Origin: Eubacterium sp.
GTDB taxonomy: Bacteria > Bacillota > Clostridia > Lachnospirales > Lachnospiraceae
Reading direction: 5' to 3'
Assembly: GCA_024698585.1 (NCBI GenBank)
Contig: JAILRB010000025.1
Span: forward strand, 1-46,104
Length of the DNA stretch: 46,104 bases
The translations under genes and the position numbers were made by a program. How positions within the stretch are numbered: position 1 is the first letter of the stretch; every line of letters starts with the position of its first letter. The notes beneath the pieces are model-generated. The model was not told where the DNA came from, did not search any database, and saw only the letters and a list, made by a program, of their open reading frames with translations. Positions 115 to 28,680 of this stretch are shown one piece after another.

Positions 115-119
115 TCGAG

Positions 120-459
120 TGGACTAGATGGGAATCGAACCCATATCCCAAAGTCCTTCCACCGTTCTTCTACTATCATAGTTCGTTATTTAACATTCCC
201 TCAGGATAACGGAAACGAACATCCTTTATCCTTCAGTAGCTTCATAAATCTCCTAATTGCGCAAAGCTTTGCAACCAGGGTGTCCTACAAAAAGTCGATG
301 CCAAATCTCAGGGTGTAGGAGTCCTAAGACTGACAGCTGCCGTAATTAGGCAGCGTATGCTAATTTGTTATCAGCGTTTAATTTAATTGTGTGAGTTAAC
401 GCATCACCTGCGGATAGCTTCACCAGATTCCAAACCCCTGTCGAAACCAGTACTAGCCC
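120..459 (-). ncRNA. ssrA: tmRNA (transfer-messenger RNA)
   Basis: Rescues stalled ribosomes: it enters as a tRNA-like molecule, its short reading frame tags the unfinished protein, and the tag directs proteolysis. The 5' acceptor strand GGGCTAG (453-459) pairs with CTAGTCC (121-127), with one G-U pair. It is followed by the hallmark ACTGGTTTCGACAGGG. The 3' end carries a T arm (ATGGG, TTCGATT, CCCAT). The tag reading frame runs from the resume codon GCT at 373-375 to TAA at 346-348 and encodes ADNKLAYAA, ending in the usual small hydrophobic residues. CCA is not encoded after the discriminator base and must be added. The gene stands alone with its own terminator, downstream of purF. The boundaries come from acceptor pairing and should be right to the base. 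Confidence 0.95.
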
Positions 460-617: not shown

Positions 618-2000
618 CTATTTCACCGGATAATGATTGTCAAAGCATGCCTTACAAATCGGCAAGTCTCCTACCATAGTCTTAAAGTCCTCGATTTGCA
701 GATACTGCAATGAGTCTGCCCCGATGTTATTGCAGATGAATTCCACGGAATGCTCTGAAGCAATTAACTGATTGCTGCTTGGCACATCCGTTCCGTAATA
801 ACATGGATACAGGAATGGTGGAGAGCTGACTTTTACGTGAACTTCCTTGGCTCCCGCCTTTTTCAGCATCTCGATAATCTGCTTCATGGTGGTTCCACGG
901 ACAATGGAGTCATCAATGATGATGATGTTCTTTCCACGAACCACATTGTCAATGACGCTTAGCTTCATGTGAACGGCTTCTCTTCGTTCTTCATCCGTCG
1001 GTTTGATGAAACTTCTTCCAATGTAACTGTTCTTATGAAATGCCAATGCAAAGGGAATTCCCGATTCCTTTGCATACCCTGCCGCTGCTGCCAGACCGGA
1101 ATCCGGTACTCCTATGACAACATCTGCCTTCACGTCTGATTTTCGTGCCAAAGCTCTTCCTGCACGCTCTCTGGCTTCATGAACTTCGATTCCGTCCATT
1201 ACGGAATCCAGTCTTGCAAAATAAATATATTCAAATATACAATGTGCATGCTGTTTGTTGCATAAGTCCTCATTACTCTTTATTCCATCCGGGGTAATTG
1301 TTATGATTTCTCCCGGTTTAATGTCACGAATCACTTCGCCTCCCACTGCACTGATTGCAACGCTTTCTGAAGCAAGTATATAAGTATCCTCTCGCTTTCC
1401 AAGAATCAATGGTTTGATTCCCTGTGGATCTCTCATTCCGACCAGTTTCCTTGGACTCATCACAATAACTGCATAACCGCCGTGAATGCGGTCTGCCGTA
1501 TTTTCAATTGCTTCTTCAATTGATTTTGTTTTTACACGCTCACTAATGATTTCATAGGTGAGTACTTCCGAATCAGAGGAAGTATAGTGTGCCTGCCCCC
1601 GATACATCTGTTCCTTCTTAATTTCATCTGCATTTACAATGTTTCCATTGTGTACCACTGCAAGACTTCCTTTGATATAATTCATTGCAATGGGTTGTGC
1701 ATTCTCCGGAGTGCTTCCTCCGGTAGTGGAATATCGGACGTGTCCTACCCCAATATTTCCCACAAGTTCCTGAAAATCCTGATGGGCAAACACTTCACTG
1801 ACAAGCCCCATTCCCTTCTTTGTTTTGATATTTCCCATAGGTCCGGTGGTATCAGAAACTGACATTCCTGCCGATTCCTGACCTCTATGCTGTAATGAAA
1901 TCAATCCATAGTAGATATCCTTTGCCACAGCTTCTCCTTCCGGTGAATAAATTCCAAACACGCCACACTCTTCATGGAGTTTGTCATCCGAAATTCCCAT
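618..2000 (-). CDS. purF: Amidophosphoribosyltransferase
   Basis: First step of de novo purine synthesis: PRPP plus glutamine give phosphoribosylamine. The protein is 460 aa, normal for the family. The N-terminal class II glutaminase begins after an 11-residue propeptide; Cys12 in HEECGVFGIY would become the N-terminal nucleophile. The C-terminal phosphoribosyltransferase half has the PRPP loop IIIIDDSIVRGTT near residue 360. Cysteines near the C-terminus (ICKAC) and in HAHCIF and LYPCYYG fit the [4Fe-4S] form known from Bacillus. The ATG at 2000 was chosen because GGGAGG stands 9 nt upstream; a longer in-frame extension to 2048 would read through the leader terminator. It stands apart from other purine genes and lies beside the glutamine/ammonium genes. 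Its leader contains an attenuator. Confidence 0.96.
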   Translation of the reverse strand: MGISDDKLHEECGVFGIYSPEGEAVAKDIYYGLISLQHRGQESAGMSVSDTTGPMGNIKTKKGMGLVSEVFAHQDFQELVGNIGVGHVRYSTTGGSTPENAQPIAMNYIKGSLAVVHNGNIVNADEIKKEQMYRGQAHYTSSDSEVLTYEIISERVKTKSIEEAIENTADRIHGGYAVIVMSPRKLVGMRDPQGIKPLILGKREDTYILASESVAISAVGGEVIRDIKPGEIITITPDGIKSNEDLCNKQHAHCIFEYIYFARLDSVMDGIEVHEARERAGRALARKSDVKADVVIGVPDSGLAAAAGYAKESGIPFALAFHKNSYIGRSFIKPTDEERREAVHMKLSVIDNVVRGKNIIIIDDSIVRGTTMKQIIEMLKKAGAKEVHVKVSSPPFLYPCYYGTDVPSSNQLIASEHSVEFICNNIGADSLQYLQIEDFKTMVGDLPICKACFDNHYPVK

Positions 2001-2018
2001 AATATTGTTCCTCCCTGC

Positions 2019-2062
2019 AAAAAAAGGCACTTTGAGCTCAATACTCAAAGCGCCTTTGCTTT
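2019..2062 (-). promoter_or_regulatory. purF leader attenuator with AANGRC hexaloop
   Basis: An 11-bp terminator stem (2026-2036 with 2044-2054) is followed by seven T (2019-2025), ending just before the purF ribosome binding site. Its 5' arm can instead form AAAGC-[AAAGGC]-GCTTT (2047-2062), a 5-bp hairpin with a six-base loop having A at position 1 and G at position 4. That is the loop signature of ANTAR-protein RNA targets. The two folds share 2047-2054 and exclude each other. The refolding is seen in the sequence; ANTAR control is inferred, and only one hexaloop is evident instead of the usual two. Confidence 0.6.
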
Positions 2063-2093
2063 TTACTTCATATATTCTTGTTATGTCTCCTCT

Positions 2094-2122
2094 ATTAAAG
2101 CACTATAAAAAGTGAATGTCAA
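2094..2122 (-). promoter_or_regulatory. purF promoter, sigma-A type
   Basis: TTGACA (2117-2122), 17-bp spacer, TTTAAT (2094-2099) on the minus strand. The predicted leader is about 85 nt, too short for a PRPP or purine aptamer plus the terminator it contains. Confidence 0.75.
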
Positions 2123-2135
2123 CCAATATTTCTCA

Positions 2136-2180
2136 TAAAATAAAAGAGTCATGCTTCCATCTTGGAATCCATGACTCTTT
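2136..2180 (-). terminator. Intrinsic terminator of the amt fusion gene
   Basis: An 11-bp perfect stem (AAAGAGTCATG with CATGACTCTTT; 2143-2153 and 2170-2180) is followed by a T-rich tail on the minus strand, 31 nt after the amt stop codon. Confidence 0.85.
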
Positions 2181-2211
2181 CTTAATTTACTTATCTTGTT
2201 TTCCTATGCAG

Positions 2212-3969
2212 TTATTCAACGTCCTGTAACGCTTCTCCGTTTTCTTCACCGGTTCGAATCTTTACAACACGGCTAACTGGGTAAACGAAGATTTTACCAT
2301 CGCCGATTTTTCCAGTATATAATGTTTTCTTTGCGGTATCGATTACGCTGTCTACCGGAATATCACTGACTACGACTTCCAATTTAATCTTTGGTAATAA
2401 GGTAAGATCCATTTCAACTCCACGGTACATCTGGCCGGCACCTTTCTGAATACCACAACCACTTACCTGAGTTACTGTAATACCTGTTACACCGAGATTA
2501 TTTAATGCTCTCTTAATCTTGTCATATCTTGATAATTTTGTAATGATAACAATCTTGTACATTCCTGTATCTAAGGATGTTCCCTTAACTGTTTCCACTG
2601 TATTTTCCACCTTAACAGAAGCTTTCTTCATTGCTTCGCTGGCAACTTCATATTCATCTACACCAAGTTTTGTGTTTTCGTTAGCAAACATTGCAGATTC
2701 TGTGATATCCACGATAGAGAAACCTGCATATGCAGAGGTAAGACCATGTTCCTTAACATCCAAACCTTCAATTTCTTCATCTTCTGTAACACGAAGTCCA
2801 AAGATTGCTTTAATGATTGCAAATACGATTGTCATTCCTACTGCGGTCCAAGCTGCTACAGTTACAATACCTAACAACTGAATTCCTAATAACTTAAATC
2901 CACCGCCGTAGAATAAACCTTTCAGGGTATCATTTCCAGGTGCTGAAGTTGTAGCAAATAAACCGACTGCAATGGTACCCCAGATACCATTCATCATATG
3001 AACTGCAACCGCACCAACAGGGTCATCAATGTGAAGTTTGTAATCTAAAAGCCATACACCGAAGCATACCAAAAGTCCTGCAACTGCCCCGATTACAACA
3101 GCGCCAAATGCATCTGTTACGTCACAAGGAGCTGTGATTGCCACAAGACCTGCAAGGGATGCATTCAAACACATCGAAACATCCGGCTTGCCATATTTCA
3201 CCCAGGTAAATACCATACATACAACAGTTGCAATAGATGGTGCAACGGTAGTTGTTAAGAATACGGAAGCAAGCTGATCAGGAGTTGTACAAGCTGCACC
3301 GTTAAATCCGTACCATCCAAACCAAAGGATGAATACACCTAAACATCCAACTACAATGTTATGACCCGGAATTGCGTTAACTTTTTTCACTTTTCCGTTT
3401 TCATCGGTGTCAAACTTACCAATTCTGGCACCTACCATCTTAGCACCGATAATCGCTGCAATACCACCTACCATGTGGATTGCACAGGATCCTGCGAAAT
3501 CGTGGAATCCCATCTGTGAAAGCCAGCCGCCACCCCAGATCCAATGTGCTTCAATCGGATAAATCAATCCTGAGATGATTCCTGAGTATACACAGTAGCT
3601 TAAGAATCTTGTTCTTTCTGCCATGGCACCGGAAACAATTGTTGCGGTTGTAGCACAGAACACTAAGTTAAATACAAAATTTGACCAATCAAAATTGCTG
3701 TAATTTGTAAAAATGTCTATTCCCGGTTTTCCGATAAAACCAAATAAATCTTCACCGAGTAATAATCCAAAACCAATGATGATGAACATTGCACAACCAA
3801 TACAAAAGTCCATTAAGTTCTTCATCAGGATATTCCCTGCATTCTTTGCTCTGGAAAAACCTGCTTCCACCATTGCAAATCCTGCCTGCATCCAAAATAC
3901 AAGAGCTGCTCCAATCAAAAACCAAACAGCGAATATCTGTCCGTTTACTGCATTCATAATTTCTTCCAT
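2212..3969 (-). CDS. amt: Ammonium transporter fused to a PII regulator
   Basis: Residues about 1-430 are an Amt/Rh ammonium channel with about eleven membrane segments; the N-terminal FWMQAGFAMVEAGFSR and the Trp/His-rich pore segments such as HWIWGGGW are typical. After a linker of about 50 residues, residues about 468-585 form a complete PII (GlnB/GlnK) domain: MYKIVIITKLSRYDKIK, a T-loop with QMYRGVE (Tyr near 515) and the B-loop TGKIGDGKIFV. PII proteins normally bind ATP, ADP and 2-oxoglutarate and plug Amt as separate trimers; here regulator and channel are covalently joined. ATG at 3969 follows AAAGGAG by 9 nt. The gene lies 127 nt after glnN, across a terminator that may be regulated. 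Confidence 0.95.
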   Translation of the reverse strand: MEEIMNAVNGQIFAVWFLIGAALVFWMQAGFAMVEAGFSRAKNAGNILMKNLMDFCIGCAMFIIIGFGLLLGEDLFGFIGKPGIDIFTNYSNFDWSNFVFNLVFCATTATIVSGAMAERTRFLSYCVYSGIISGLIYPIEAHWIWGGGWLSQMGFHDFAGSCAIHMVGGIAAIIGAKMVGARIGKFDTDENGKVKKVNAIPGHNIVVGCLGVFILWFGWYGFNGAACTTPDQLASVFLTTTVAPSIATVVCMVFTWVKYGKPDVSMCLNASLAGLVAITAPCDVTDAFGAVVIGAVAGLLVCFGVWLLDYKLHIDDPVGAVAVHMMNGIWGTIAVGLFATTSAPGNDTLKGLFYGGGFKLLGIQLLGIVTVAAWTAVGMTIVFAIIKAIFGLRVTEDEEIEGLDVKEHGLTSAYAGFSIVDITESAMFANENTKLGVDEYEVASEAMKKASVKVENTVETVKGTSLDTGMYKIVIITKLSRYDKIKRALNNLGVTGITVTQVSGCGIQKGAGQMYRGVEMDLTLLPKIKLEVVVSDIPVDSVIDTAKKTLYTGKIGDGKIFVYPVSRVVKIRTGEENGEALQDVE

Positions 3970-4002
3970 ATGTCATTTCTCCTTTCACTGTTGCCATACG
4001 CA

Positions 4003-4030
4003 ATTATTACTTATTTCATAGACTTGTAAA
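4003..4030 (-). promoter_or_regulatory. Possible amt promoter
   Basis: TTTACA (4025-4030), 16-bp spacer, AATAAT (4003-4008), placed after the glnN-amt terminator. It is a moderate match, so amt may be transcribed independently as well as by readthrough. Confidence 0.35.
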
Positions 4031-4035
4031 CATAG

Positions 4036-4081
4036 AAAAAGCCACCCCACTCTCCGTTTGCCACGTCGTTGTGGGATGACT
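4036..4081 (-). promoter_or_regulatory. glnN-amt intergenic terminator with AANGRC hexaloop
   Basis: An 11-bp stem with G-U pairs (AGTCATCCCAC with GTGGGGTGGCT; 4071-4081 and 4040-4050) ends in five T. The 5' arm can also form CCAC-[AACGAC]-GTGG (4061-4074), again a hexaloop with A1 and G4 closed by C-G. It can act as the glnN terminator or as a controlled readthrough point into amt. The terminator is clear; the regulated switch is inferred from the same arrangement at purF and glnN. Confidence 0.65.
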
Positions 4082-4096
4082 CTTTTTATTTTCATT

Positions 4097-6196
4097 TTAA
4101 TATACGCTAAACAATAACTTGCCGTAGCTTGGGAATGGCCAGTATCTTTCTGAGGTAAGCATTTCTGCTTCATCCACATACTTTCTTACGGTATCCATTG
4201 CCGGCAGAATCTCATCTCTCATCACTTCTGATGTCTTGATGATATTGTCGTAGTCTACGAGTTTTTCAAGTTTCTCTTCCAAATCGCTGGTAGCGCTTGA
4301 AATGGAATCAGTTAATTCAGAAAGTCTTTCCATGGTTGTAATTTCATAATTACATTTTACATTGGAACTTACTGACTTCATTAAAGATGTTGTCTTTGCA
4401 AGGCTATACAGATATCCTTCGATGGCTGCAAGGTAATTCTTTCTTACCATGTCTACCATTGTATGAGCTTCGATATTGATTGTCTTGCAGTAGTTCTCTA
4501 ACATGATTTCACATCTTGAGTGAAGTTCTGATTCTGAGAATACTTTATGTTCCATAAGCATATCCACGTTCTTCTGATCTAAAAGATGTGGCATTGCGTC
4601 AGCTGTTGTTTTAAGATTGGAAAGGCCACGAACCTTAGTCGCTTCTTCAATCCATTCTTCACCATATCCATTACCATTGAAGATAATTCTTTCATGCTTC
4701 TTAATGGTATCCTTAATTAATTCATGAAGTTCGCTTTCGAAATCAGCCGCTCCTTCTAACTGATCAGCAAACTGCTTCAAGCTTTCTGCAACTGATGCAT
4801 TTAACATAATGTTACAGCATGCAATACTGTTTGCTGAACCAAGAGAACGGAACTCGAACTTGTTTCCTGTGAAAGCAAATGGTGATGTTCTGTTTCTGTC
4901 TGTTGTATCTCTTGAGAATCTTGGAAGTGAGTGAACTCCAAGTTTCATGATTACCTTTTCTGTTCCTTCGTATGGAGTGTCATTCTTAATAGAATCAAGA
5001 ATTGCTGTCAGTTCATCTCCAAGGAAGATTGAAATGATTGCAGGTGGTGCTTCGTTCGCTCCAAGTCTGTGGTCATTTCCTGCTGTTGCAACGGAAAGTC
5101 TTAATAAATCCTGATATTCGTCAACAGCCTTGATTACTGCACAAAGCATTAATAAGAACTGTGCATTTTCGCTTGGTGTATCTCCAGGGGAAAGAAGGTT
5201 CACTCCCTTATCTGTAGCCATGGACCAGTTGTTATGCTTACCGGAACCATTCACTCCTGCGAATGGTTTTTCATGAAGTAAGCAAACCATTCCGTGCTTT
5301 CTTGCAACCTTCTGCATGATTTCCATTGTTACCTGGTTGCTGTCTGTTGCTACGTTTGTTGTTGAGAAGATTGGTGCTAATTCGTGCTGTGCAGGTGCTA
5401 CTTCGTTATGTTCTGTCTTAGCAAGAATTCCAAGCTTCCAAAGTTCTTCATTCAATTCTTCCATGAATGCGCAAACTCTAGGTTTGATAACACCAAAGTA
5501 ATGGTCATCTAATTCCTGTCCCTTTGGAGGCATTGCTCCAAACAATGTTCTTCCTGTATATACAAGGTCAGGTCTCTTTTCGAACATTTCCTTATCTACT
5601 AAGAAATATTCCTGTTCCGGACCTACGCTTGTTCGAACGTATTTTACGTCGTTTCCAAATAATTTTAATACTCTCTTAGCCTGACGGTTCAGTGCCTGCA
5701 TGGATCTTAACAATGGTGTTTTCTTATCCAATGCATCACCAGAGTATGAACAGAATGCTGTTGGAATACAAAGGGTATGATCTTTAATGAATGCATAAGA
5801 TGTTGGGTCCCATGCTGTATATCCTCTTGCTTCGAATGTTGCTCGAAGACCTCCGGATGGGAATGATGATGCATCCGGTTCTCCTTTGATTAATTCCTTT
5901 CCGGAGAATTCCATGATAACGCCTCCGTCTGGTGATGGAGAAATAAAGCTGTCATGCTTTTCTGCGGTAATTCCTGTCAATGGCTGGAACCAATGAGTGT
6001 AATGTGTTGCTCCGTTTTCTAAAGCCCATTTTTTCATTTCTGTTGCAACTGCGTCTGCAACCTTGTCATCTAATCTTGTATTTTCGTCAATTGTCTTCTT
6101 GAGCGAACTGTAAATATCCTCCGATAATCTCGCTCTCATCACTCTGTCATCAAATACAAGTGATCCAAACATTTCAGGTACGTTTTGTGTTTTCAT
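4097..6196 (-). CDS. glnN: Glutamine synthetase type III
   Basis: Makes glutamine from glutamate, ammonium and ATP. At 699 aa it has GSIII length, far above the 440-470 aa of GSI, and its start ([12 protein letters not shown]) and [10 protein letters not shown] are GSIII-like. Catalytic-core signatures include PEQEYFLVD, the long segment around [23 protein letters not shown] and the [17 protein letters not shown] arginine region. GSIII enzymes form dodecamers and are common in Bacteroides and Clostridia. ATG 6196 follows AAGGAG by 7 nt. It is preceded by a perfect-consensus promoter, an attenuator-like terminator and a further leader of about 130 nt. Its neighbours Amt-PII and PurF form a glutamine-linked group with it. 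Confidence 0.96.
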
Positions 6197-6324
6197 AATG
6201 ATTCTCCTTCCTTATTTCCATCTCGGTTGACGCTTTCCCTTGTCTTTGTATTGAGTACAGACCCTGGTGCGTCCTGGCTACGCTCATTCTTTTCAAGCGT
6301 TTTATGGAACTTTTAAATTTCCAC

Positions 6325-6368
6325 AAAAAAAGCGCCTCGGAGTGTTTTCTCCAAGACGCCCTTGCCTT
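6325..6368 (-). promoter_or_regulatory. glnN leader attenuator with AANGRC hexaloop
   Basis: A strong 11-bp stem (6349-6359 with 6332-6342, loop AAAACA) is followed by seven T (6325-6331). It begins within about a dozen bases of the predicted transcription start, so unregulated transcripts should abort. The 5' arm can refold as AAGGC-[AAGGGC]-GTCTT (6353-6368), a hexaloop with A1 and G4. The remaining leader (6197-6324) holds no gene; a short inverted repeat ACGCT/AGCGT lies at 6280-6300. In solventogenic Clostridium, glnA is known to sit beside an AmiR/NasR-like (ANTAR) antiterminator gene, which fits this reading. Confidence 0.65.
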
Positions 6369-6377
6369 ATGTTGTGG

Positions 6378-6406
6378 ATTATATCTGCTTAATTTTTCTC
6401 TGTCAA
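6378..6406 (-). promoter_or_regulatory. glnN promoter, perfect sigma-A consensus
   Basis: TTGACA (6401-6406), 17-bp spacer, TATAAT (6378-6383). A perfect consensus promoter directly followed by a terminator suggests that control is exerted after initiation. Confidence 0.88.
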
Positions 6407-6473
6407 GTTTTTTTCGTTTTTCTTAAAAATATAAACCATTCACTTAAGTTATTTAGTTTTTCCTTTTCTTTTG

Positions 6474-7388
6474 TTAGACCTCATGTTCCTCAATATATTT
6501 GCTTGCCGCCAAAGCTGCCACAGCACCGTCTGCTGCCGCAGTAGTTAGTTGTCTTACTTCTTTCGTCCGGCAGTCTCCCGCTGTAAACAGGCCACCTGTC
6601 TCTGTGATACAGGCTTCCGTTGCCACAACATATCCATGATCATCCAGCTCCACAGCTTCCTTGAAATTCTCATTTTCCGGAATCTGCCCCACTGCCACAA
6701 AAATTCCCTGAACTTCCAGAACTCGTTCTTCATTCGTCTTGACATTTTTGACTTTCAATCCGGTTACCATCGGTTCCCCTTGGATTTCCACTGGCACGCT
6801 ATCAAGCACCAGTTCCACGTTTTCCTTCTCTTTTAAAATGGAGGACAGTTTCTGCTCCCCTCGGAAGGAATCTCTTCGATGCACCAAATAAACCTTGGCG
6901 CAGTAATTCGACAGGAATATTGCATCCTCCAATGCTGTATTTCCTCCACCGACTACCACCACAGTTCTGTTCCGGAAAAACATTCCATCACAAGTGGCAC
7001 AATAACTTACCCCGGCACCAATCATTGCTTCTTCCCGTTCCAGTCCCAGCGTTCTACGCTTCAGCCCGGTAGCAAGAATCACCGTCTTTCCTTCATATTC
7101 ATTCTTTCCGGTCTTCACCTTCCAGACATTATTTTCCTTTTCAATTTTTTCGGCTTTTTCATAAACCACTTCTGCCCCCAGATTTTTCACCTGGTTAAAC
7201 AGATTTGTGGCAAACTCAAATCCGGACACCTTTGCAATCCCCGGGTAATTTTCAATCTCCGGTGTATTCACAATCTGTCCGCCATAACTCTTTTCTTCAA
7301 ACATCACTACGCTTCTACCAGCACGAAGTCCGTAAATAGCTGCAGACATCCCCGCCGGTCCGGCACCTATAATCATAATATCATACAT
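6474..7388 (-). CDS. trxB: Thioredoxin reductase
   Basis: NADPH-dependent flavoenzyme that reduces thioredoxin. At 304 aa it is close to the usual 305-320. The N-terminal FAD-binding loop IIGAGPAGMSAA lies at residues 5-16, the redox-active CATC near 131-134 (SYCATCDG), the NADPH-binding GGGNTALEDA near 150, and the C-terminal FAD signature TGGLFTAGDCR near 270. ATG 7388 follows AGGAGG by 7 nt. It lies downstream of trxA, separated by 161 nt containing a terminator, so it is either co-transcribed by readthrough or has a promoter I cannot identify. The only identified glutaredoxin- or thioredoxin-type partner in the window is the adjacent TrxA. Confidence 0.96.
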   Translation of the reverse strand: MYDIMIIGAGPAGMSAAIYGLRAGRSVVMFEEKSYGGQIVNTPEIENYPGIAKVSGFEFATNLFNQVKNLGAEVVYEKAEKIEKENNVWKVKTGKNEYEGKTVILATGLKRRTLGLEREEAMIGAGVSYCATCDGMFFRNRTVVVVGGGNTALEDAIFLSNYCAKVYLVHRRDSFRGEQKLSSILKEKENVELVLDSVPVEIQGEPMVTGLKVKNVKTNEERVLEVQGIFVAVGQIPENENFKEAVELDDHGYVVATEACITETGGLFTAGDCRTKEVRQLTTAAADGAVAALAASKYIEEHEV

Positions 7389-28493: not shown

Positions 28494-28680
28494 CAAGTCT
28501 CACTGCTTATAAGTAGCTCTCCATCTTTCGATGACAGTCATATGACTCTTAATCATATGCCCAGGATCAATGCTCCGCAACACTTTCACCTTCGGCGCTA
28601 AATCCTTTCAGAAATGTTCCTCTGCCCACGGAGGCATCCCATCTCGTACTCATAAGTAGCGCGACCTCTACTATCGTTTA
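28494..28680 (-). ncRNA. Lysine riboswitch (L-box)
   Basis: About 185 nt between promoter and dapA. It carries L-box hallmarks on the minus strand: GATAGTAGAGGTCGCG at the 5' side, AGTACGAGATGGGATG, GGATTTAGCGCCGAAGGTGA in the middle, GTTGCGGAGC, and the closing CAGTGAGACT pairing region. Family knowledge: lysine binding stabilises a fold that lets the following terminator form. Its position before dapA-dapB fits exactly. Together with its terminator it fills the 382-base gap before dapA. Confidence 0.93.

Follow-up and report, generated by a model that had tools for sequence, protein, structure and literature searches.

The window analysed here is the whole 46,104-nucleotide stretch of Eubacterium sp. 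DNA, contig C37 in a draft genome of 2.51 Mb, and on its minus strand the genes glnN, amt and purF2 are each preceded by a small RNA hairpin with a loop of six bases (a hexaloop) that overlaps an intrinsic terminator. These elements are very probably single-hexaloop termination switches of the ANTAR type. ANTAR antitermination is itself known; the single-hexaloop form is a new variant of it. A preliminary description, made from the letters of the window, had proposed a shared switch with the loop pattern AANGRC at the three genes and had guessed at a single-hairpin variant, and the three elements do lie where it put them, with the hairpins of glnN and purF2 competing with their terminators.

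The features of the three elements are as follows, where R1 and R2 are covariance models, R1 built from elements of the genus with the hexaloop pairs only and R2 including the terminator pairs as well:

6352 to 6369, minus strand: glnN hexaloop hairpin UAAGGC[AAGGGC]GUCUUG, the putative ANTAR site and antiterminator (alignment, R1 and R2 matches)
6325 to 6360, minus strand: glnN intrinsic terminator (hairpin 6331-6360 plus U-run), overlapping the hexaloop hairpin at loop and 3' arm
2047 to 2062, minus strand: purF2 hexaloop hairpin AAAGC[AAAGGC]GCUUU (R2 match of 52.5 bits, the model having been trained with the purF2 element)
2019 to 2057, minus strand: purF2 intrinsic terminator (hairpin 2023-2057 plus U-run; from folding, with the layout seen at glnN)
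4061 to 4074, minus strand: amt hexaloop hairpin CCAC[AACGAC]GUGG, in the intergenic region of glnN and amt (from the sequence)
4036 to 4080, minus strand: glnN-amt intergenic terminator (hairpin 4041-4080 plus U-run; from folding), its 5' arm common with the 5' arm of the hexaloop hairpin

The core of the glnN hairpin, AAGGC[AAGGGC]GUCUU, has 5 bp and competes with the overlapping terminator, and the element is matched by R1 at 50.1 bits and by R2 at 54.6 bits, the training sets of both models having included it. At glnN and purF2 the 5' arm of the terminator consists of the loop plus the 3' arm of the hexaloop hairpin, while at amt it is the hairpin's 5' arm. Unconstrained folding produced the terminator at each site (-28.7 kcal/mol at glnN, -25.8 at purF2 and -27.2 at amt), and forcing the hexaloop gave -15.3, -12.6 and -15.1 kcal/mol, respectively, a cost of 12-13 kcal/mol. 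Since folding favours the terminator at every one of the three sites, the hexaloop state would need stabilising. An Rfam search of the whole window and of positions 1900-6500 returned neither an ANTAR family nor a riboswitch at the elements.

Conservation within the genus was followed in a sample of 23 genomes. The glnN gene was found in 20 of them and is preceded by a hexaloop-terminator element in all 20; counted by gene copy the figure is 20 of 22, both exceptions being extra paralogues (L042 in G007 and L043 in G009) beside a regulated copy. The GlnN protein of one relative, G008, is after rounding 100% identical to that of the window. For purF2, an element of its own precedes the gene in eight of the 21 loci examined, and purF2 copies lacking one include a gene directly after glnN in G002 and another directly after amt in G007. 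At amt the element was present in four of 21 loci examined, with the loops AACGAC, AACGGC and AATGGC and an invariant stem core, and the covariance model did not retrieve it in the window's own genome. The proposal of one switch shared by three genes thus stands for glnN and purF2, and holds more weakly for amt, whose element is differently built.

The covariation of the hexaloop stem among relatives, which the preliminary description had named as a check, is present. In 18 elements of the genus 100% of the cells of the hexaloop helix are paired (a percentage that leans that way, as the detector that chose them accepted only stems of 4 bp or more), with two-sided changes in three of the five pairs. 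In 59 diverse elements the same helix is paired in 99.3% of cells with two-sided change in four of five pairs, and the terminator helix in 95.2% of cells with two-sided change in nine of twelve. Paired cells and covariation scores lie clearly above those of slid controls (0.614 versus a maximum of 0.278 for the hexaloop helix, and 0.693 versus a maximum of 0.236 for the terminator helix); for the terminator helix, the count of two-sided pairs taken alone is not above the controls, since a slide of -2 also yields nine. Because R1 held only hexaloop pairs, the terminator pairing is independent of that model; the hexaloop covariation is not, save for the genus glnN set. The two helices share five bases (alignment columns 14-18) and both covary, i.e., their pairing is mutually exclusive.

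Across 148 leaders (94 + 54, with partly overlapping organisms), A1 is found in 147, G4 and R5 in all 148 and C6 in 136, the detectors having favoured positions 1 and 4 (and 2 for 72 leaders) and having required neither R5 nor C6. At amt the loop bases are not part of the terminator base and still fit the pattern. That these are ordinary leader terminators in which a hexaloop hairpin arises by chance is a thought prompted by the G-rich arms, which can pair with themselves, and by the greater stability of the terminator at all three window sites, but the 5' arm of the hexaloop hairpin lies outside the terminator and covaries nevertheless. In addition, 1014 other terminator calls, from at least 37 of 80 GlnN loci, contained only three C-G closed A..G.. 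hexaloops outside the AANGR pattern. The same calls included 47 AANGR hexaloops; 34 of them were examined, and 28 of these lie in front of a glutamine or glutamate gene. This comparison is not a clean negative control: 47 of its 50 matches are additional AANGR elements (with double calls of some terminators), and the background is the other three. Together with the co-occurrence described below, covariation rules out chance hexaloops, and we give that explanation next to no credence.

An ANTAR gene elsewhere in the genome had also been anticipated, and the genome encodes exactly one such protein, directly downstream of a second glutamine synthetase gene, the type I glnA. It scores 57.9 bits against PF03861 (curated cut-off 27.3), is similar to PDB entries 1s8n, 4akk and 6wsh, and resembles Rv1626, NasR and EutV. 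The arrangement is a general one: glnA lies directly upstream of the ANTAR gene in 19 of 19 regions from the family and in 20 of the 21 from the genus, where the last locus ends at a contig edge. The gene that follows glnA-ANTAR (L002:6097-7311) resembles, by eye, an LL-diaminopimelate aminotransferase, and such a gene in G065 (L161) has a hexaloop element of its own.

The link between element and protein was then sought at two taxonomic scales. Within the family, 250 genomes were scanned, one per genus, and 103 of them matched at E<=0.01; the element occurred in 101 of 222 genomes with an ANTAR gene and in two of 28 without (Fisher p 6e-5). This contrast is lopsided, 222 of the 250 being ANTAR-positive, and the comparison was therefore repeated over 398 genomes of the phylum, where at E<=1e-6 an ANTAR gene was found in 41 of 42 genomes with the element and in 166 of 356 others (p 1e-11). 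With the window's own family removed, the figure at this threshold is 36 of 37, and at E<=1e-3 it is 81 of 91 over the phylum; R2 contains terminator pairs, so some of its weak matches will be plain terminators. Absence is likewise joint in G001, a genus member 96% complete in which no ANTAR, glnN, amt or purF2 was found and no element match was better than E 0.54. In G014, which is 81% complete, the glnN element is present and an ANTAR gene was not found.

At the RNA contacts the protein differs from EutV. The contacts of EutV with RNA have been mapped to Tyr164, Met172 and the basic residues R142, K143 and K147, as given in the consulted portions of PMC8934654, and at these positions the window's own ANTAR protein has His for Tyr164, keeps Met172, and has Gln, Gln and Glu for the three basic residues. 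Among 38 glnA-linked ANTAR proteins Met is kept in all 38 and the Tyr164 position is His in 34 and Phe in four. All 16 ANTAR proteins of other families of the phylum (chosen, not sampled) keep R or K at all three basic positions, so that the loss of basic residues sets the glnA-linked proteins apart, and their sequences could reflect an altered mode of RNA binding. The receiver domain is also altered: Gly occupies the position of the phospho-acceptor Asp in the protein encoded here, and the Asp is present in eight of the 38 and missing in 30.

It could be asked on these grounds whether the hexaloop is recognised by a different RNA-binding protein or by a small molecule (glutamine, for example), with the ANTAR genes co-occurring incidentally; the loss of most of the basic contacts, which the 16 chosen proteins of other families keep, would fit this, as would the failure to find an ANTAR gene in 10 of the 91 element genomes at E<=1e-3. 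Set against it are the A1/G4 loop and C-G closing pair, which match the mapped ANTAR site, and the fit of the loop, except for its last base, to the eut 13-mer AGCAANGRRGCUY in the available text of PMC3369931, as well as the strong statistical link to ANTAR genes, the joint absence in G001 and the lack of any Rfam match at the elements. We consider a binder other than ANTAR very improbable.

The known sites to which these elements must be compared have two hairpins. At the eut genes of Enterococcus faecalis, the EutV sites consist of hexaloop hairpins P1 and P2 separated by a linker of 5-12 nt, and deletion of P1 abolishes induction, both hexaloops being needed for antitermination in vivo (PMC3369931, from the sections available). 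In the leaders studied here, a partner upstream (an A..G.. hexaloop with a stem of 4 bp or more, within 35 nt) was found in none of 94, with 3.0 expected from shuffling. A strong promoter (score >=10) was predicted in 69 of the 94 leaders, and in 65 of these 69 the hexaloop begins 6-15 nt past the -10 box, compared with one of 93 in the control region. Transcription generally begins some 7 nt downstream of a -10 box. With this spacing the hairpin would stand at the 5' end of the mRNA, and the hexaloop probably is that 5' end, leaving no room for a P1. Loci found by the GlnN protein alone gave a similar result, with an element in 54 of 78 testable and a strong promoter at no more than 15 nt in 37 of 40; three of these leaders have a weak upstream A..G.. 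hairpin that is not C-G closed, and at least four of the 24 loci without an element (L272, L274, L275 and L291) have one further upstream, before an asnB-like gene. The guess that this is a single-hairpin variant receives good support from the promoter position and the missing P1.

The promoters and genes of the window itself are:

6401 to 6406, minus strand: glnN -35 box TTGACA of the predicted promoter (from the sequence; spacer of 17 nt)
6378 to 6383, minus strand: glnN -10 box TATAAT of the predicted promoter (from the sequence), its end 8 nt from the hexaloop hairpin
4097 to 6196, minus strand: glnN, type III glutamine synthetase, 699 aa (PF12437 GSIII_N and PF18318)
2212 to 3969, minus strand: amt-glnB fusion, an ammonium transporter with a C-terminal PII domain, 585 aa (TIGR00836 above cut-off)
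2117 to 2122, minus strand: purF2 -35 box TTGACA of the predicted promoter (from the sequence)
2094 to 2099, minus strand: purF2 -10 box TTTAAT, predicted and weak (from the sequence), 31 nt from the hairpin
621 to 2000, minus strand: purF2, a second amidophosphoribosyltransferase paralogue, 460 aa (TIGR01134, 500.6 bits)

The purF2 promoter of the window falls below the scoring rule used for the leader set, and the PII models match residues 470-581 of the amt-glnB product below those models' whole-protein cut-offs. The other purF of the genome (G000:C59:52606-53757) is 32% identical to purF2 and lies elsewhere, and the inclusion of purine synthesis in the regulon, as first proposed, is upheld only in the sense that a second PurF paralogue belongs to it. 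The window also holds a tmRNA gene (117-459, minus strand) and a lysine riboswitch (28506-28678, minus strand), both identified with Rfam.

Could the system still be a dual-hairpin one, with a partner that is non-canonical, such as the tetraloop hairpin of one genus clade, or further away, or supplied in trans? EutV does require P1 in the account cited above, and the P1 test is positive elsewhere in the phylum, where a classical dual site stands at the amt of G300, ggugc[AGUGCU]gcacc. Eight genus glnN leaders (L034-L041) are longer and, judged by eye, form a small hairpin upstream, roughly at the place of P1, whose stem varies and whose loop has four bases and is often GAAA-like. A second full element also lies 62-77 nt upstream in at least five of 54 glnN leaders (tandem full hexaloop-terminator elements precede glnN in L294, L303, L312, L322 and L323, and there are two in L301 and L314). 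However, the 6-15 nt between -10 box and hairpin in 65 of 69 leaders are too short for another hairpin, the tandem copies examined each have a terminator call of their own, and a partner hexaloop 6-45 nt downstream occurs in none of 148 leaders. Hexaloops 45-110 nt downstream were found in 12 of the 148, against 1.0 in shuffled sequence, and part of these are tandem elements. A concealed partner seems to us unlikely.

The reach of the single-hexaloop element was followed across relatives. Beyond its training set, R1 found matches in the genus in the leaders of gltB (G007, G009), carA (own genome, G002, G008) and pyrG (G003), and further matches at a hisC-type aminotransferase (G011, G022) and a LysR-type regulator (own genome, with a similar match in G008); one member of each was named, and the gltB call rests on a partial protein just below its cut-off. 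R1 also gave weaker genus matches whose arms are of the TAAAGGACAC type; these resemble plain terminators and were set aside. In the own genome R2 retrieved glnN, purF2, carA and the LysR gene, and nothing else better than E 0.1.

In the family, 72 of the matches were examined in detail, and the 69 with a gene in reach precede glnN (30), amt (9), gltB (5), purF2 (3), glnA (2), carA (1) and others (19). The others include five asparagine synthases (one confirmed, four by eye) and single cases of glutamate dehydrogenase, LL-diaminopimelate aminotransferase and an amino-acid ABC ATPase (best match GlnQ, below cut-off). Others still, among them an RraA-like protein, a PucR regulator and a TauE-type permease, have no evident glutamine link. 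More elements in the GlnN loci precede asnB-like genes, gltB, gltD, gdhA, amt, glnA and a glutamate-synthase amidotransferase domain (by BLAST or by eye). Divergent minus-strand elements stand before glutamate synthase or its amidotransferase domain in L306, L322, L311, L314, L295 and L318 (by eye), and several of these have long stems of the form AAAUGAGC[AAAGGC]GUUCAUUU. The targets across relatives are thus glnN, amt-PII, gltB, gltD, asnB, purF2, carA, pyrG, gdhA and glnA-ANTAR, and their common theme is glutamine amidotransferases. One nitrogen or glutamine regulon, as had been suggested from the window, is what the genus, 250-genome and GlnN-locus scans point to.

Several observations weigh against a single-hexaloop ANTAR switch of this kind. 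By the EutV model, in which both hexaloops are needed, a lone hexaloop should fail, and the basic contacts of EutV are mostly lost from the 38 glnA-linked proteins (R or K at position 142 in nine, at 143 in 18 and at 147 in seven). Elements occur where no ANTAR gene was found in G207 and G098 of the family and in G513 and nine weaker cases of the phylum. No promoter was called by the scoring rule in 25 of the 94 leaders, no strong promoter adjoins eight genus glnN leaders or purF2 of the window, and if the search upstream is widened to 60 nt, an A..G.. hexaloop appears in four of 94, a number below the shuffled 6.3. No element of its own was seen at 13 of the 21 purF2 loci, one of these (L087) a partial match. 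The carA element of the own genome, which is outside the 148 leaders, has G1 in place of A1: its loop is GAAGGG there (G000:C34:72300-72346, L133) and in G008 (C81:4256-4302, L131), with G4 and the C-G closure kept, and AAAGAG in G002. At glnN and purF2 the bases G4, R5 and C6 also build the base of the terminator, and some of their constancy may therefore be owed to the terminator.

The mechanism that we propose begins with RNA polymerase leaving a strong sigma-70 promoter, where it would immediately make the small AANGRC-loop hairpin. Active ANTAR protein, encoded behind glnA, would bind and hold this hairpin, leaving the downstream arm of the terminator without a partner, and glnN, purF2 and other targets would be transcribed; lacking active ANTAR, the far more stable terminator would form and transcription would stop. 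One ANTAR protein might in this way jointly set the genes that make glutamine (glnN, amt-PII and, in some genera, glnA) and those that consume it (gltB, asnB, carA, pyrG and purF2). Being the first RNA out of the polymerase may stand in for the recruiting role of P1 in Walshe's model. What the computation shows is the pair of alternative helices and their covariation, the co-occurrence with ANTAR genes, the make-up of the regulon, the place beside predicted promoters and the missing P1. We infer that the ANTAR protein binds the RNA of the element, that one hexaloop suffices, that the protein answers to a signal through a partner, and that it is active under nitrogen shortage. Since most of these proteins lack the phospho-Asp and their genes adjoin glnA, the signal would, we think, come by protein contact and not from a kinase; glutamine synthetase or PII would be the likeliest partner. 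Supply genes among the targets suggest activation in nitrogen shortage; the demand genes (asnB, carA, pyrG and purF2) could also fit glutamine plenty. The fullest version of the proposal is a tentative one, which we consider possible but somewhat doubtful as a whole: that one 5'-terminal hexaloop is enough when it is the first RNA made, and that a kinase-independent pseudo-receiver ANTAR protein, gated by contact with the adjoining glutamine synthetase, runs a family-wide regulon of glutamine supply and demand in Lachnospiraceae and other Clostridia.

Searches of open-licence PMC papers brought up no description of this single-hairpin class or regulon. Earlier collections of ANTAR sites modelled or required two tandem stem-loops, as far as the available parts of PMC3369931 and PMC8164766 state, so a single-hairpin class could have been missed, and the extent to which single hexaloops serve as ANTAR sites is the question on which Walshe 2022 closes (PMC8934654, in the portion consulted). 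The elements described here are a natural set of single-hexaloop candidates at terminators, occurring in 103 of the 250 genera sampled from a dominant family of the gut; they would offer a general answer to how these gut clostridia coordinate the production and use of glutamine, and would tie a paralogous purF and the synthesis of carbamoyl-phosphate, CTP and asparagine to one nitrogen regulator.

Antiterminators linked to glnA are known in clostridia, glnR of C. saccharobutylicum being one. The elements share with the EutV eut RNA an A1/G4 hexaloop, a conserved closing pair, a hairpin competing with an overlapping terminator, an ANTAR protein in the genome and nitrogen-related targets, but in place of P1 and P2 there is one hairpin, mostly right at the predicted promoter, and whereas EutV comes with a kinase and a receiver that can be phosphorylated, the phospho-Asp is absent from 30 of 38 glnA-linked ANTAR proteins and His replaces Tyr164 in 34. 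The linkage of an ANTAR or antiterminator gene to ammonia assimilation is like that of nitR in C. acetobutylicum and Clo1313_2030 in C. thermocellum (PMC4676874), although that account, in its available part, gives no RNA site, single hexaloop, or purF, carA, pyrG or asnB targets, unlike the present one. In its breadth, the regulon is like the nitrogen ANTAR regulons of Desulfotomaculum, which, in the sections available of PMC3369931 and PMC8164766, take in several operons, including genes for glutamate and glutamine synthesis.

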